In this document: positions 4,465 to 7,925 of the stretch, piece after piece
Layout of the letters: the number at the start of each line of letters is the position of its first letter
Position numbering within the stretch: the stretch's first letter is position 1
NCBI GenBank assembly: GCA_903831335.1
Contig: CAIKXH010000037.1
Span: 1 to 12,623, forward strand
DNA: 12,623 bases
Direction of reading: 5' to 3'
Source: Candidatus Uhrbacteria bacterium
GTDB lineage: Bacteria > Patescibacteriota > Patescibacteriia > UBA9934 > GWF2-40-263
The notes under the pieces: generated by a model
The model's database searches: none
What the model saw: the letters and a program-made list of their open reading frames with translations, nothing else
Told to the model about the DNA's origin: nothing
Made by a program: the position numbers and the translations under genes

Positions 4465-4566
4465 GAGGCGACAGAAGCGACAAAGGTGTCAGAGGCGACA
4501 GAGGTAAGGGAAATCGTTTCCAAAAACTTCTGTCGCTTTTGTTGCCTCTGACACCTCTGTCGCTTT
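4465..4566. repeat. Head-to-head arrays of degenerate 9-bp repeats forming a long hairpin
   Basis: The left arm is four 9-mers in register (GAGGCGACA, GAAGCGACA, AAGGTGTCA, GAGGCGACA; 4465-4500). The right arm (4531-4566), read on the minus strand, is again four 9-mers (AAAGCGACA, GAGGTGTCA, GAGGCAACA, AAAGCGACA). Positions 4475-4500 pair with 4540-4565 at 24 of 26 positions plus one G-U, with a 39-nt loop. It begins 3 bp after the dnaE stop and ends in TTTT, so it may help end the dnaE transcript. Its right arm supplies a -35 box for the next gene. Confidence 0.8.
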
Positions 4567-4577
4567 TATGTTACAAT
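4548..4577 (+). promoter_or_regulatory. Extended -10 promoter giving a near-leaderless transcript
   Basis: CTGACA (4548-4553), an 18-bp spacer and TACAAT (4572-4577) preceded by TGT, an extended -10. The start point should be about 4584-4586, essentially at the ATG at 4586, so the mRNA is probably leaderless; no Shine-Dalgarno site is visible. The -35 box lies in the right arm of the 9-bp repeat hairpin. Confidence 0.7.
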
Positions 4578-4585
4578 ACACACAT

Positions 4586-5806
4586 ATGGCCATCAAAAAA
4601 GTCGCAACACGCAAGCGCGTTCCTGTTAAACGTGTAACACGTGTTGTTGCAAAAGAGGAATATGAAACACCTGTGTCGCACTCGCATGCGATCGCGGTTC
4701 CACTTATTTTATATCGCCGCATTGCCCTTGCGTTTATTATTGTTGTTGCGGCCGTGCTTTTGATTGTGATGTATTTGTCTACCATGCAGGCAACCATTCG
4801 CATCAAACCGATTGCAAAAGAATTTTCCTCAGATCTTATTGTTCACACAGCTGCAAGTCCCATTGATGACACAGAAATCCATGGAGCTGTTCTTTCTGGA
4901 ACCATGACAAAGACAAAAACATTTTCTCCAAGCGGGACAGGAGCAAAAAAGGTGGACGGGATCGCAAAAGGAACCGTTGTACTTACAAATAAGACAAACG
5001 CTCCTCAATCCCTCATTGCAACCACACGTTTATTATCCAGTACGGGAGTTTTGTTTAGACTTCAAAAAACAGTTGTTGTACCAGCAAATGGTACGGTAAG
5101 TGCAGAAGTGTACGCAGATAAACCAGGATCTTCTGGTGATGTCCCTGCCGGACACTTTACGATTCCTGGATTGAATGAAATAAAACAAGCTTCGATCTTT
5201 GCAGACAGCAAGGTTGCGTTTTCTGGAGGTGTAGAAACAATCACTGTTGTTTCTAAGGAAGAGCTGGAAAAATCTGTCGATGTTTTGAAAGAAGAAATTT
5301 TGAATGAAGCAAAAGATCTCCTTCGTGCTCAAGCTGGAACAGGATTTGATGGGGAAGTTTTTACAGCAGAAATTACAAATAAAAAAACAAGCATTCAGCC
5401 AGACACAGAAGCAAAGTCTTATGATGTAACCCTTTCAGAAACAGTGGTGGGTGTGTTCTATGATAAGACCGCGCTTAAAAAATTGTTCACGCTTCACTTG
5501 TATGAGGGGTTAGGACAAGGACAAGATTTTTCCGGAACAAACGTAGATAACATGGAGGTCACCATCGATCAATATGATGCTTCCCAAAAAGTCGCAAGTA
5601 TTCATGCGCACATGGATGGAAAAATGACCATTACAAGAACAAACAAAGCTTTGGATGTTTCCCGATTTGTTGGGTTGAGTGCGGATGATGTTCGTAAGAA
5701 GCTTGTGGCAGAGGGGGTTGCCGAATCTGTCACTGTGGACTTTTTCCCGTTTTGGTTGAATAAGATTCCGCGCCTGAAAGATCATGTTTACATTGAGTTT
5801 CAATAG
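4586..5806 (+). CDS. Membrane-anchored extracytoplasmic protein, baseplate-J-like (406 aa)
   Basis: Residues 1-45 form a basic cytoplasmic tail (MAIKKVATRKRVPVKRV), 46-64 one strong transmembrane helix (IALAFIIVVAAVLLIVMYL), and the remainder is a Thr/Val/Lys-rich beta-type extracytoplasmic region. The stretch from about 130 to 200 (GTVVLTNKTNAPQSL, then VVVPANGTVSAEVYA, then GSSGDVPAGHFTIPGL) has the pattern of baseplate J/gp47-like domains annotated on many Patescibacteria surface proteins. The C-terminus (SADDVRKKLVAEG, then FPFWLNKIPRL) looks like a small final domain. The role is unknown; a cell-envelope function is inference. The ATG at 4586 is preferred over one at 4568 because the -10 box overlaps the upstream ATG. 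The gene is monocistronic, with a terminator at 5813-5838. Family assignment is from recollection of pattern, not a search. Confidence 0.85.
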   Translation: MAIKKVATRKRVPVKRVTRVVAKEEYETPVSHSHAIAVPLILYRRIALAFIIVVAAVLLIVMYLSTMQATIRIKPIAKEFSSDLIVHTAASPIDDTEIHGAVLSGTMTKTKTFSPSGTGAKKVDGIAKGTVVLTNKTNAPQSLIATTRLLSSTGVLFRLQKTVVVPANGTVSAEVYADKPGSSGDVPAGHFTIPGLNEIKQASIFADSKVAFSGGVETITVVSKEELEKSVDVLKEEILNEAKDLLRAQAGTGFDGEVFTAEITNKKTSIQPDTEAKSYDVTLSETVVGVFYDKTALKKLFTLHLYEGLGQGQDFSGTNVDNMEVTIDQYDASQKVASIHAHMDGKMTITRTNKALDVSRFVGLSADDVRKKLVAEGVAESVTVDFFPFWLNKIPRLKDHVYIEFQ

Positions 5807-5841: not shown

Positions 5842-5870
5842 TTGACGAATCAGAAATGGGGGGTTATTCT
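5842..5870 (+). promoter_or_regulatory. Promoter of the thrS T-box leader
   Basis: TTGACG (5842-5847), a 17-bp spacer and TATTCT (5865-5870). The expected start point is about 5876-5878, where the structured leader begins (GGGCAATG). It lies 3 bp beyond the preceding terminator, giving thrS an independent transcript with a leader of about 300 nt. Confidence 0.75.
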
Positions 5871-5874
5871 AAAA

Positions 5875-6096
5875 GGGCAATGAAGAAGGACACACATGTT
5901 TCTTTGCCCAAAAGAGATTGAGAACCTTGGCTGTAAGTTCTCGAGGCACCAAACAAACACGTACAACCTTTGGAGCAATCTGATTCAAAAGAGAGGCTTG
6001 TGAGGGAGAAATCCTCACAGCAATTCGGGTGGAACCGTCCGTGAATAAATTTACATGGATCCCGATTCAACTTAATTAAGATGAATCGGGTTTTTT
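5875..6096 (+). promoter_or_regulatory. T-box riboswitch controlling thrS (tRNA-Thr sensor)
   Basis: T-box leaders bind a specific tRNA; uncharged tRNA stabilises an antiterminator and lets transcription enter the synthetase gene. Visible here: the T-box core GGGTGGAACCG (6027-6037); antiterminator helix A1 TCGGG (6025-6029) with CCCGA (6061-6065); a 7-nt bulge TGGAACC (6030-6036) whose TGGA would pair with a tRNA ending UCCA; helix A2 GTCCGTG (6037-6043) with CATGGAT (6054-6060); and Stem III TGTGAGG/CCTCACA (5999-6005, 6013-6019). In Stem I, AAAGAG (5912-5917) and a hairpin at 5920-5942 with GGCTG in its loop resemble the AG bulge and distal loop. The best specifier is ACA (Thr) at 5963-5965, between helices AAGG/CCTT (5886-5889, 5967-5970) and 5894-5901/5955-5962; ACC at 5948-5950 is a second Thr option. 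The 5' fold is less certain because local hairpins compete with it. Confidence 0.93.
6061..6096 (+). terminator. Regulated terminator of the thrS T-box
   Basis: A 9-bp stem CCCGATTCA (6061-6069) and TGAATCGGG (6082-6090), with a further small stem in the palindrome CTTAATTAAG, is followed by TTTTTT (6091-6096). The left arm CCCGA is also the 3' half of the antiterminator, so the two structures are mutually exclusive, as in known T-boxes. Confidence 0.93.
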
Positions 6097-6102
6097 ATTT
6101 CC

Positions 6103-6170
6103 TGTCATTCTGAACGAAGTGAAGAATCTCTTATTTCAACGCGAGATCCTTCGCTCAGCTCAGGATGACA
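6103..6170. repeat. REP-like palindromic intergenic repeat
   Basis: An imperfect 28-bp inverted repeat (6103-6130 and 6143-6170) with a 12-nt loop; 22 of 28 positions pair by Watson-Crick and two more by G-U. Both ends read TGTCAT on their own strand. The ends resemble the TGTCATTCTGA-type dispersed palindromes I recall from many uncultivated bacterial genomes. Its last bases contain the ATG at 6165, an in-frame but unlikely thrS start. No transposase accompanies it. Confidence 0.75.
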
Positions 6171-6179
6171 CAAACGCAT

Positions 6180-7925
6180 ATGACACAAGATCAACTAGAA
6201 CATCGCAGACATTCGCTTGCGCACTTGCTTGCAGCAGCGGTTATGGAGCTTTGGCCAGACACCAAACGCACCATTGGTCCAGCCATTGATGATGGGTTTT
6301 ATTATGATTTCGAATTTTCGAAACAAATCACAGAAGAAGATCTTCCAAAGATTCAAGCAAAGATGAGAGAGATTCTTCCATCATGGAACAAATTTGATCG
6401 TGAAGAAGTTTCTGTAGAAGAAGCAAAGAATGTGTTTTCATCGAATCCATACAAACTCGAACTCATCGAACAATTTTCTGGAGAAGGGCAGACACTTACT
6501 TTCTACAAATCCGGTTCATTTAAAGATCTTTGTCGTGGTGGGCATGATGAAGGAATTTCTGATGTGGATCCAGAATCTTTTCAGCTGTCGAAAGTAGCAG
6601 GTGCGTACTGGCGCGGAGATGAGAAGAATCAAATGCTGACACGTATTTACGGTTTGGCTTTTGCAACAAAAGAGGAACTCGATGCGCACCTTTTGATGCT
6701 TGAAGAAGCAAAGAAGCGTGATCATCGCAAATTGGGAGCTGAGCTCGAACTCTTTGCCTATTCTCCGCTTGTCGGATCCGGACTCCCGATGTTTACTCCA
6801 CGTGGAACCGCCATGCGTGAGGCACTCACCGGATTTGTGACTGCGCTCATGAAACCGCACAAATATTCTCGTGTGTGGATTCCGCACATCGCAAAATCCG
6901 ATCTCTACAAAACATCTGGGCACTGGGACAAATTTGCGGACGATATTTTTCATGTCACAAGTAAAAAGACCGATGATCAATTTGTCTTAAAGCCAATGAA
7001 CTGTCCGCATCACACGCAAATTTATGCGTCCAAGATGCGCAGCTATCGCGATTTGCCGTTGCGCTTCGCGGAGGCAACAACGGTGTATCGCGATGAGAAC
7101 ACAGGACAACTCGCCGGCCTCACACGTGTTCGATCCATCACACAGGACGATGCACACGTATTTGCTCGCCCAGATCAAGTGAAAGAAGAAGTATTGAAGA
7201 TCTACGACATCATCACAAAATTTTACGCAGCATTCGGCATGCCACTTCGCATCCGTTTATCCGTCGATGATCCAGAACATCCAGAGAAATATCTTGGTGG
7301 GGCAGAGGTTTGGACAAAAGCGGTGGCAGCACTCAAAGACATGTTGACCGAGCTTGGTCGCGACTTTGAACTCGGTGTTGGTGAAGCAGCGTTTTACGGA
7401 CCAAAGATCGATTTTATTGCAACAGATGCAATCGGACGAGATTGGCAATTAGCAACGGTTCAGCTCGATTTTAACCTTCCAGAGCGCTTTGAATTAGAGT
7501 TCCATGATGCAGACGGCCAAATCAAGCGCCCAGTCATGATTCACCGCGCCATTCTCGGAAGTGTCGAACGATTCATGGGAGTTCTCATCGAACACTACGC
7601 CGGCGCCTTTCCGTTCTGGCTCGCACCTGCGCAAGTGCGCATCGCAACTGTAAGTGAAGCATTCATTCCGTTCGCGGAAACAATACTGGCTGAGCTTGTC
7701 GAAGCTGGAGTACGTGCCGAGCTCGATGACTCAAATGAGAAAGTTGGAAAGAAAATTCGCGATGCTGCAACCGTGAAAGTGCCATGGACGATCGTGATCG
7801 GACAGAAAGAAGTGGACGGGGGAGACTTCAAAGTAAACGTCTTCGGACAAACAGAAGACATCATGATTGCCGCAAGCGAACTTATCGCAAAGGCTGTTGA
7901 TGCGTCAAAGTTTCCAATCGTTTAA
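6180..7925 (+). CDS. thrS: Threonine-tRNA ligase (ThrRS) lacking the TGS domain (581 aa)
   Basis: Class II synthetase that attaches threonine to tRNA-Thr. The protein begins directly with the N2 editing domain: H11-x-x-x-H15 (HSLAH) with C118 and H122 (CRGGH), the four residues that in E. coli ThrRS clear Ser-tRNA-Thr. The N-terminal TGS (N1) domain of about 60 residues found in E. coli ThrRS (642 aa) is absent. The catalytic core follows, with zinc ligands C275 (NCPHH), H326 (QDDAHVF) and H455 (MIHRAILGS), motif 2 near VYRDENTG and motif 3 around the final GS. The C-terminal anticodon-binding domain spans about 480-581 (RAELDDSNEKVGKKIRDA). An in-frame ATG at 6165 lies inside the REP-like element, so 6180 is preferred; neither has a clear Shine-Dalgarno site. 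Expression should depend on the upstream T-box. Editing and aminoacylation residues are all present. Confidence 0.98.
   Translation: MTQDQLEHRRHSLAHLLAAAVMELWPDTKRTIGPAIDDGFYYDFEFSKQITEEDLPKIQAKMREILPSWNKFDREEVSVEEAKNVFSSNPYKLELIEQFSGEGQTLTFYKSGSFKDLCRGGHDEGISDVDPESFQLSKVAGAYWRGDEKNQMLTRIYGLAFATKEELDAHLLMLEEAKKRDHRKLGAELELFAYSPLVGSGLPMFTPRGTAMREALTGFVTALMKPHKYSRVWIPHIAKSDLYKTSGHWDKFADDIFHVTSKKTDDQFVLKPMNCPHHTQIYASKMRSYRDLPLRFAEATTVYRDENTGQLAGLTRVRSITQDDAHVFARPDQVKEEVLKIYDIITKFYAAFGMPLRIRLSVDDPEHPEKYLGGAEVWTKAVAALKDMLTELGRDFELGVGEAAFYGPKIDFIATDAIGRDWQLATVQLDFNLPERFELEFHDADGQIKRPVMIHRAILGSVERFMGVLIEHYAGAFPFWLAPAQVRIATVSEAFIPFAETILAELVEAGVRAELDDSNEKVGKKIRDAATVKVPWTIVIGQKEVDGGDFKVNVFGQTEDIMIAASELIAKAVDASKFPIV

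Follow-up and report, generated by a model that had tools for sequence, protein, structure and literature searches.

A probable threonine T-box leader upstream of thrS in Patescibacteria, and T-box-like leaders across the phylum

Introduction

T-box riboswitches are best known from Gram-positive bacteria. In the passages drawn on here, PMC7583486 gives RRRxG and AA flanks of Stem III as a T-box feature, puts a typical Stem II domain alone at about 70 nt, and relates the 'C rule' of T-box codons to the S-turn in Stem II. The same passages state that transcriptional T-boxes generally need a long Stem I, and that ultrashort forms are described from translational T-boxes (PMC7583486). In the open-licence literature we found no report of a T-box in Patescibacteria or the candidate phyla radiation. 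The excerpt concerned of a paper treating Patescibacteria and riboswitches names riboswitches as a gene-expression tool (PMC11665869), the table of phyla in a 2008 T-box survey is without such a lineage (PMC2494555), and Patescibacteria are not named in the consulted portions of the articles on TBDB (PMC7778990) and on a 2025 riboswitch survey (PMC12452182).

Here we describe the thrS leader in a 12,623-nt stretch of DNA from a Candidatus Uhrbacteria bacterium, which we call the window, and follow related leaders through its family, class and phylum. A preliminary description of this DNA had made its placement in Patescibacteria conditional; the placement is supported by a genome of the same phylum (G688) that shares DNA with a 'Patescibacteria group bacterium' record (L088). 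The class of the window we take to be ABY1, and a genome of the same class (G224) shares DNA with Kerfeldbacteria (L084).

Anatomy of the thrS leader

Judged by its anatomy, the segment at 5875-6096 (+ strand, as are all leader features and thrS below) is a genuine threonine T-box, a member of a known T-box family in a phylum for which we found no report. It makes up a complete leader of the transcriptional type, preceded by a promoter-like site and followed by thrS. The promoter-like site (TTGACG, 17 nt, TATTCT; 5842-5870) matches the consensus at 9 of 12 positions, and a pattern scan found one such site against a mean of 0.6 in shuffles. TTGACG recurs by eye at a similar position in many family leaders, and the site would place the transcript start at about 5877.

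Stem I (5875-5976) is of the long form, with covariation in all four helices among 18 leaders. The pairs G5877-C5976 and C5878-G5975 are followed by kink-turn strands, a lower helix (5885-5889/5967-5971), an upper helix (5894-5898/5958-5962) in which A5896 and C5960 are unpaired, and a covarying distal hairpin (5918-5925/5937-5944). The 5' side of the specifier loop reads ACAC (5890-5893, alignment columns 20-23), and the specifier codon, ACA for threonine, lies at 5963-5965 with A5966 after it. The module that binds the tRNA elbow, comprised of AGAGA and distal loop, is present, since 5913-5944 aligns to RF00230; its AGAGA motif (5913-5917) falls on the AGAGA of the model in nearly invariant columns. 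Stem III (5996-6021; strands 5996-6005/6013-6021) has 9 bp and one bulge, backed by covariation and fold, and gains a G-U pair in the lowest-energy fold. Both flanks expected of a T-box are there, GAGAG at 5991-5995 as the RRRxG motif and AA at 6022-6023.

The T-box core, GGGTGGAACCG, occupies 6027-6037 within an antiterminator at 6025-6065 that is placed by the RF00230 alignment, by folds and by the covariation table. Helices A1 (6025-6029/6061-6065) and A2 (6037-6040/6057-6060) close around a 7-nt bulge, TGGAACC (6030-6036; UGGAACC in the RNA), which fits UGGNACC. The intrinsic terminator pairs CCCGATTCA with TGAATCGGG (6061-6069/6082-6090), has an inner helix (6071-6073/6078-6080), and runs into six T at 6091-6096. 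Core, A1, TGGA bulge, A2, Stem III and terminator with T-run had all been placed correctly in the preliminary description.

Stem II and IIA/B, which are usual though not universal in class I T-boxes, are absent from the window leader. Stem I and the core are separated by 51 nt in the window, most of them Stem III, by 51-52 nt in the four leaders of its genus, and by 51-69 nt in all 18; because Stem III fills most of the 51-52 nt gap, the genus leaders have no Stem II.

The T-box had also been said to lie upstream of thrS, and this holds: the reading frame at 6165-7925 is a threonine--tRNA ligase (TIGR00418, 657.8 bits against a cut-off of 383.65). Its ATG at 6165 lies inside an imperfect palindromic repeat (GTCATTCTGAACGAAGTGAAGAATCTC ... 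AGGATGACA) that occupies 6100-6172, between terminator and thrS. The ATG at 6180 fits the start in relatives better and is perhaps the true one. At the spot of this repeat, two genus-mates (G035, G034) and a relative (G017) carry, by eye, a different inserted sequence. A second, near-perfect long inverted repeat lies between dnaE and the next gene (4470-4569), where Rfam models of plant microRNAs match below their cut-offs. The gene directly upstream of the leader (4568-5806) encodes a 412-aa protein with a weak Baseplate_J match just under cut-off.

Evidence that the leader is a T-box

A cmscan search of the window, a check proposed in the preliminary description, matches RF00230 at 5871-6067 with 45.5 bits and an E-value of 1.6e-7. 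The score is about half the Rfam gathering score of 93 and does not reach it; therefore annotation that relies on cut-offs misses this leader. No second RF00230 match at E<=1 occurs in the source genome (852 kb, 81% complete). The leader also folds better than dinucleotide shuffles (z -3.15), none of 200 being as good.

Comparison with relatives had likewise been suggested, and it bears out the pairing. We aligned 18 thrS leaders of the family, the window included, and assessed a structure of 34 pairs whose helices come partly from RNAalifold, with A1 and A2 set by hand. Changes on both sides occur in 27 of the 34 pairs, and 94.4% of 608 cells are paired, against 76.3% in shuffles and 30-49% when the structure is slid; helix A1 has no pair with change on both sides. 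Chance resemblance is ruled out by the RF00230 match, the fold against shuffles and the covariation. Counting against a T-box switch are the sub-threshold Rfam score, the A-C mismatch in the upper helix of Stem I, and the lack of a T-box in the close relative G033 (see below). Even so, we consider it very probable that this is a threonine-specific, transcription-attenuating T-box riboswitch controlling thrS, for which computation establishes the parts, their pairing and covariation, the codon, the tRNA match and the exclusive hairpins.

Codon and tRNA specificity

The specifier column reads threonine in 18 of 18 family leaders (ACC in 12, ACA in 4, ACU in 2) and is the only alignment column to read threonine in all of them. 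Other columns that encode a single amino acid are fixed motifs, except one for Leu (CTG/TTG) and one for Pro (CCC/CCG). ACA is common to the four leaders of the genus, the window among them, and agrees with the amino acid of the downstream gene. The specifier loop reads ACAY/ACNR in most of the 18 rows, not AGUA/GAA. An ACA specifier breaks the 'C rule', and a threonine T-box with ACA and without Stem II offers a test case for the rule that codons rich in A and U require Stem II.

We read 29 tRNA genes in the source genome, 28 clear and one odd, from an assembly that is 81% complete, and the list may lack some genes; a 30th, weak RF00005 match yielded no tRNA. At 1498-1574 of L081, a tRNA-like gene of 77 nt with an odd anticodon arm was called tRNA-Ser(UGA). 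The tRNA-Thr genes found have the anticodons UGU, GGU and CGU, and all three end in UCCA. Across the 29 tRNAs, U73 occurs in four, these three and tRNA-Gly(UCC). The UGGA of the bulge is complementary to the UCCA end of tRNA-Thr, discriminator U included, just as had been predicted from the TGGA motif, and the UGU anticodon, also singled out beforehand, is present. Codon ACA and bulge UGGA together point to tRNA-Thr(UGU) as the target, because the specifier is ACA and U73 is confined to the three tRNA-Thr and tRNA-Gly(UCC).

A tRNA other than tRNA-Thr was rejected on the threonine specifier column and the distribution of U73. That the leader senses another U73 tRNA, such as tRNA-Gly, seems scarcely credible: tRNA-Gly(UCC) of the source genome does end in UCCA, and T-boxes of the class also stand before glyS, but glycine codons do not match a specifier that is ACA here and threonine throughout the alignment, and the gene downstream is thrS.

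Proposed mechanism and terminator architecture

By analogy with the known T-box family, from which we infer tRNA binding, the sensing of charging and the direction of control, a threonine-specific switch would work as follows. The leader would be transcribed from the promoter at 5842-5870, and Stem I would hold tRNA-Thr(UGU), with the anticodon paired to ACA and the AGAGA/distal-loop module meeting the elbow. If this tRNA is uncharged, its 3' UCCA would pair with UGGA at 6030-6033 and A1 and A2 would close; the terminator could then not form and thrS would be transcribed. With the tRNA charged or absent, 6061-6069 would pair with 6082-6090 and transcription would stop at the T-run. Reduced, host-dependent bacteria are commonly thought to have little regulation; this one appears to monitor directly whether a single tRNA is charged.

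The 5' strand of the window terminator contains all five 3' bases of A1, which makes the two structures exclusive, and by folding the A1 and terminator forms lie 7.4 kcal/mol apart. The overlap is five of five bases in the window and three genus-mates. A pattern scan with a loop limit of 8 passed over this terminator.

Elsewhere in the family the arrangement differs. The lowest-energy fold holds A1 and the hairpin before the T-run together in 13 of the 18 family leaders, and the co-folding hairpin keeps 7-10 bp in 12 of these 13 and only 4 in G005; in G020 the terminator overlaps A1 by 4 bases. Terminator and antiterminator are not exclusive in 12 of 18 leaders, with G005 and G020 intermediate. 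By script, 12 family leaders (G005 included) have a terminator that starts -2 to +1 from the end of A1. The same holds by inspection for G025, whose terminator the script had mis-picked and whose terminator sequence matches that of G023. A usable terminator was obtained for just two of the family's seven tryptophan T-boxes, L002 and L006. Offsets in 16 T-boxes of one Bacillota genome run from -7 to -22, and in the class an offset of -3 or more occurs in 9 of 12 Gly leaders, 5 of 36 ultrashort Thr leaders and 8 of 37 other Thr leaders, the last group containing members of the window's family. These comparisons use the terminator offset only, as the script's 'compatible' label is unreliable, having flagged 4 of the 16 Bacillota controls, wrongly by inspection.

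For the abutting leaders, our guess is that A1, shut by the tRNA and flush with the terminator, would prevent hairpin closure within the RNA exit channel. A pairing between Stem I and terminator, seen by eye in one abutting leader (GUGAAG/CUUCAC in G029), was also considered and fails in other leaders. With both exclusive and abutting terminators, the family provides natural sequences for studying the role of strand sharing.

Probable inheritance and loss within the family

RF00230 at E<=0.01 gives 22 matches in 18 of 42 family genomes; the Rfam cut-off is passed in 2 of the 42. Fifteen matches stand before thrS with a Thr codon, counting G016 with one gene between, and seven carry a Trp codon (by eye). 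Three more Thr leaders found by motif bring the alignment to 18, and a 19th (G004), found by model, stands outside it, so that at least 19 of 42 family genomes have a Thr T-box before thrS. The intervening gene of G016 (L007) encodes 412 aa and matches nothing in NCBIfam or Pfam; the T-box stands in front of it and thrS follows.

The tryptophan T-boxes (L002-L006, L008, L019; UGG specifier by eye) precede trpD-like genes in L004, which was checked and falls below the equivalog cut-off, and in L002 and L003, which are alike. Those of L019 (checked) and L008 (alike) precede trpS, and the genes behind L005 and L006 gave no identification by model.

In 27 of 30 family loci the 1.5 kb before thrS contain a homologue of the window's upstream gene, which rules out contamination of the window; among the three exceptions is G013, which has just 103 bases before thrS. 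Twelve loci have the upstream gene and showed no T-box; in 11 of them 8-229 nt separate this gene from thrS, and in the twelfth (G038) the upstream gene is matched only in part. G033 sits beside the window (support 94/84) in the ThrS tree, and its thrS is 90% identical; no T-box was seen there and the gap is 84 nt, against 361 in the window. T-box control is thus dispensable, since a close relative shows none. In G026 (L042), which is without that upstream gene, an apparent T-box remnant stands directly before thrS; all that seems left of it is the promoter, the beginning of Stem I and the final part of the terminator.

Frequent loss of this kind, with the element absent in G033 and apparently deleted internally in G026, speaks for a relic, a leader kept by descent that no longer regulates while thrS is read through regardless. 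We judge this very improbable, as hairpins, bulge, specifier and T-run are intact in the four leaders of the genus and vary compatibly, and the losses that we looked at resemble deletions by eye rather than decay in place.

Mapped on the ThrS tree (29 rows), the T-box label requires six changes, against 9.9 in shuffles, with 6 of 500 shuffles as low; ThrS is mosaic, so this is not a species tree. The mosaic is seen among the family genomes (L023-L052): in G036 the first ~180 alignment columns of ThrS are like another ThrS type and the middle is 78-100% like that of the window, and the G036 thrS leader closely resembles the window leader. Within the window's family, the distribution looks like inheritance of the T-box with repeated deletion. 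To the question raised at the outset, whether the element was inherited or transferred, synteny and deletions give an answer inside the family, where inheritance is favored.

T-box-like leaders across class and phylum

RF00230 at E<=1e-3 matches 123 of 361 Patescibacteria genomes and 5 of 14 control genomes. Because 13 of the 361 reach the Rfam cut-off, databases may already list some Patescibacteria T-boxes. We searched further with a family model (R1) and an ultrashort model (R2), the E-values of both being rough by the tool's own warning, in class and phylum samples that include the window and its relatives. R1 matches 134 of 380 genomes of the class, and R2 matches 195 of 380 in the class and 60 of 379 in the phylum. 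By model matches, about a third of sampled phylum genomes (RF00230) and half of those in the class (R2) hold a T-box-like leader.

Of 146 R1 matches in the class (counted from the listing) 110 were inspected, and 109 have a T-box core, L230 being the one without. By BLASTP, thrS is the longest reading frame behind 84 of the 110. Behind another 12 lies glyS, two checked with NCBIfam and the rest named by sequence likeness, and the remainder precede valS, metK, GNAT-like genes or no reading frame in the stretch. The T-box-like leaders before genes like GNAT acetyltransferases are those of L235, L270, L273 and L281; the family matches for L235 are all below cut-off. Thirty loci from the R2 phylum search divide into 14 from the class, all with the core, and 16 from elsewhere, with a T-box-like core that in five of them is a variant missed by the motif and seen only by eye. 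The loci outside the class precede thrS, glyS, ileS and others, named by sequence likeness.

Among 80 thrS loci of named genomes, R1 at E<=0.1 matches five, from Kerfeldbacteria, Paceibacterota, CSMAG_888 (of the window's class), an uncultured bacterium and Alteribacillus, and none of the many Bacteroidota loci. ThrS proteins of named genomes do not exceed 59% identity among the matches listed.

The absence of Stem II, the break with the 'C rule' and the frequency of T-box matches across the phylum go beyond the preliminary description, and we find the wider pattern more interesting than the single leader of the window.

An ultrashort Stem I with putative terminators

The class yields 88 Thr leaders, 84 by BLASTP and four assigned by hand. 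As an ultrashort Stem I we counted any hairpin with 4 or more base pairs whose loop is 7 nt long and has AC-N-purine at positions 3-6; it occurs in 45 of the 88, the window itself being of the long form. By script, 38 of the 88 fit neither the ultrashort nor the long pattern, a group that includes long-form leaders of the family. In 39 of the 45 ultrashort leaders a stem of at least 5 bp carries ACC in its loop, and any other codon is found there in at most three. In 37 aligned ultrashort leaders, 92.2% of cells over 23 pairs are paired against 70.3% in shuffles, a value that for Stem I is partly due to selection, the leaders having been picked for that hairpin. Pairs with change on both sides number 18, a count reached by 18 of 500 shuffles (one of five measures).

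By script, 36 of the 45 have a terminator, and ultrashort Thr leaders thus appear to use terminators. If true, this contradicts the rule that transcriptional T-boxes need a long Stem I. We tentatively propose, at a little under even confidence, that Patescibacteria hold their own, mostly unannotated branch of T-boxes. Many of its members would be ultrashort, with a 7-nt loop presenting the codon (e.g. CU-ACC-AA), and yet terminate. Part of the branch would have an abutting terminator, as in the 12 of 18 family leaders that do not include the window, with the tRNA blocking by bulk or stacking and not by base competition.

Comparison with known systems

The window leader is most readily compared with class I T-boxes (RF00230). 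It shares with them the kink-turn Stem I, the AGAGA/distal-loop module, the specifier and a Stem III flanked by purines, as well as the UGGN bulge, A1/A2, an exclusive terminator and an aminoacyl-tRNA synthetase gene behind. It differs in its score (45.5 against 93 bits), in the absence of Stem II and IIA/B, in a specifier loop without AGUA/GAA, and in a codon that ends in A.

The thrS T-box of Alteribacillus sp. YIM 98480 (L184) resembles the window leader by eye in its specifier loop (ACAUG/UACCG), AGAGA motif and distal hairpin, and it too has a UGGAACC bulge. It is longer, with an RF00230 match of 302 nt, a long middle section and the codon ACC, against 197 nt and ACA in the window. Of the 16 T-boxes of this one Bacillota genome, it scores best under the family model (57.1 bits; next 50.7). 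These likenesses would fit a transfer of the threonine T-box from Bacillota in place of common ancestry, a question of origin that does not compete with the mechanism. Against this, T-box matches are spread over many of the phylum's families, with thrS behind most of those inspected, and the locus is largely syntenic within the window's family. We consider transfer a serious possibility, though rather doubtful, and the phylum-wide matches are relevant to the question of whether the T-box arose in Gram-positive bacteria or earlier.

The glyQS glycine T-boxes that are without Stem II resemble the window leader in the short linker that joins Stem I to Stem III, and differ in having, according to the relevant passage of PMC7583486, the strong codon GGC where the window has ACA. 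The ultrashort translational T-boxes of Actinobacteria, finally, resemble other T-boxes of the window's class in a Stem I without elbow module. In contrast to the actinobacterial forms, these T-boxes of the class seem to rely on terminators, and the gene they serve is thrS or glyS.
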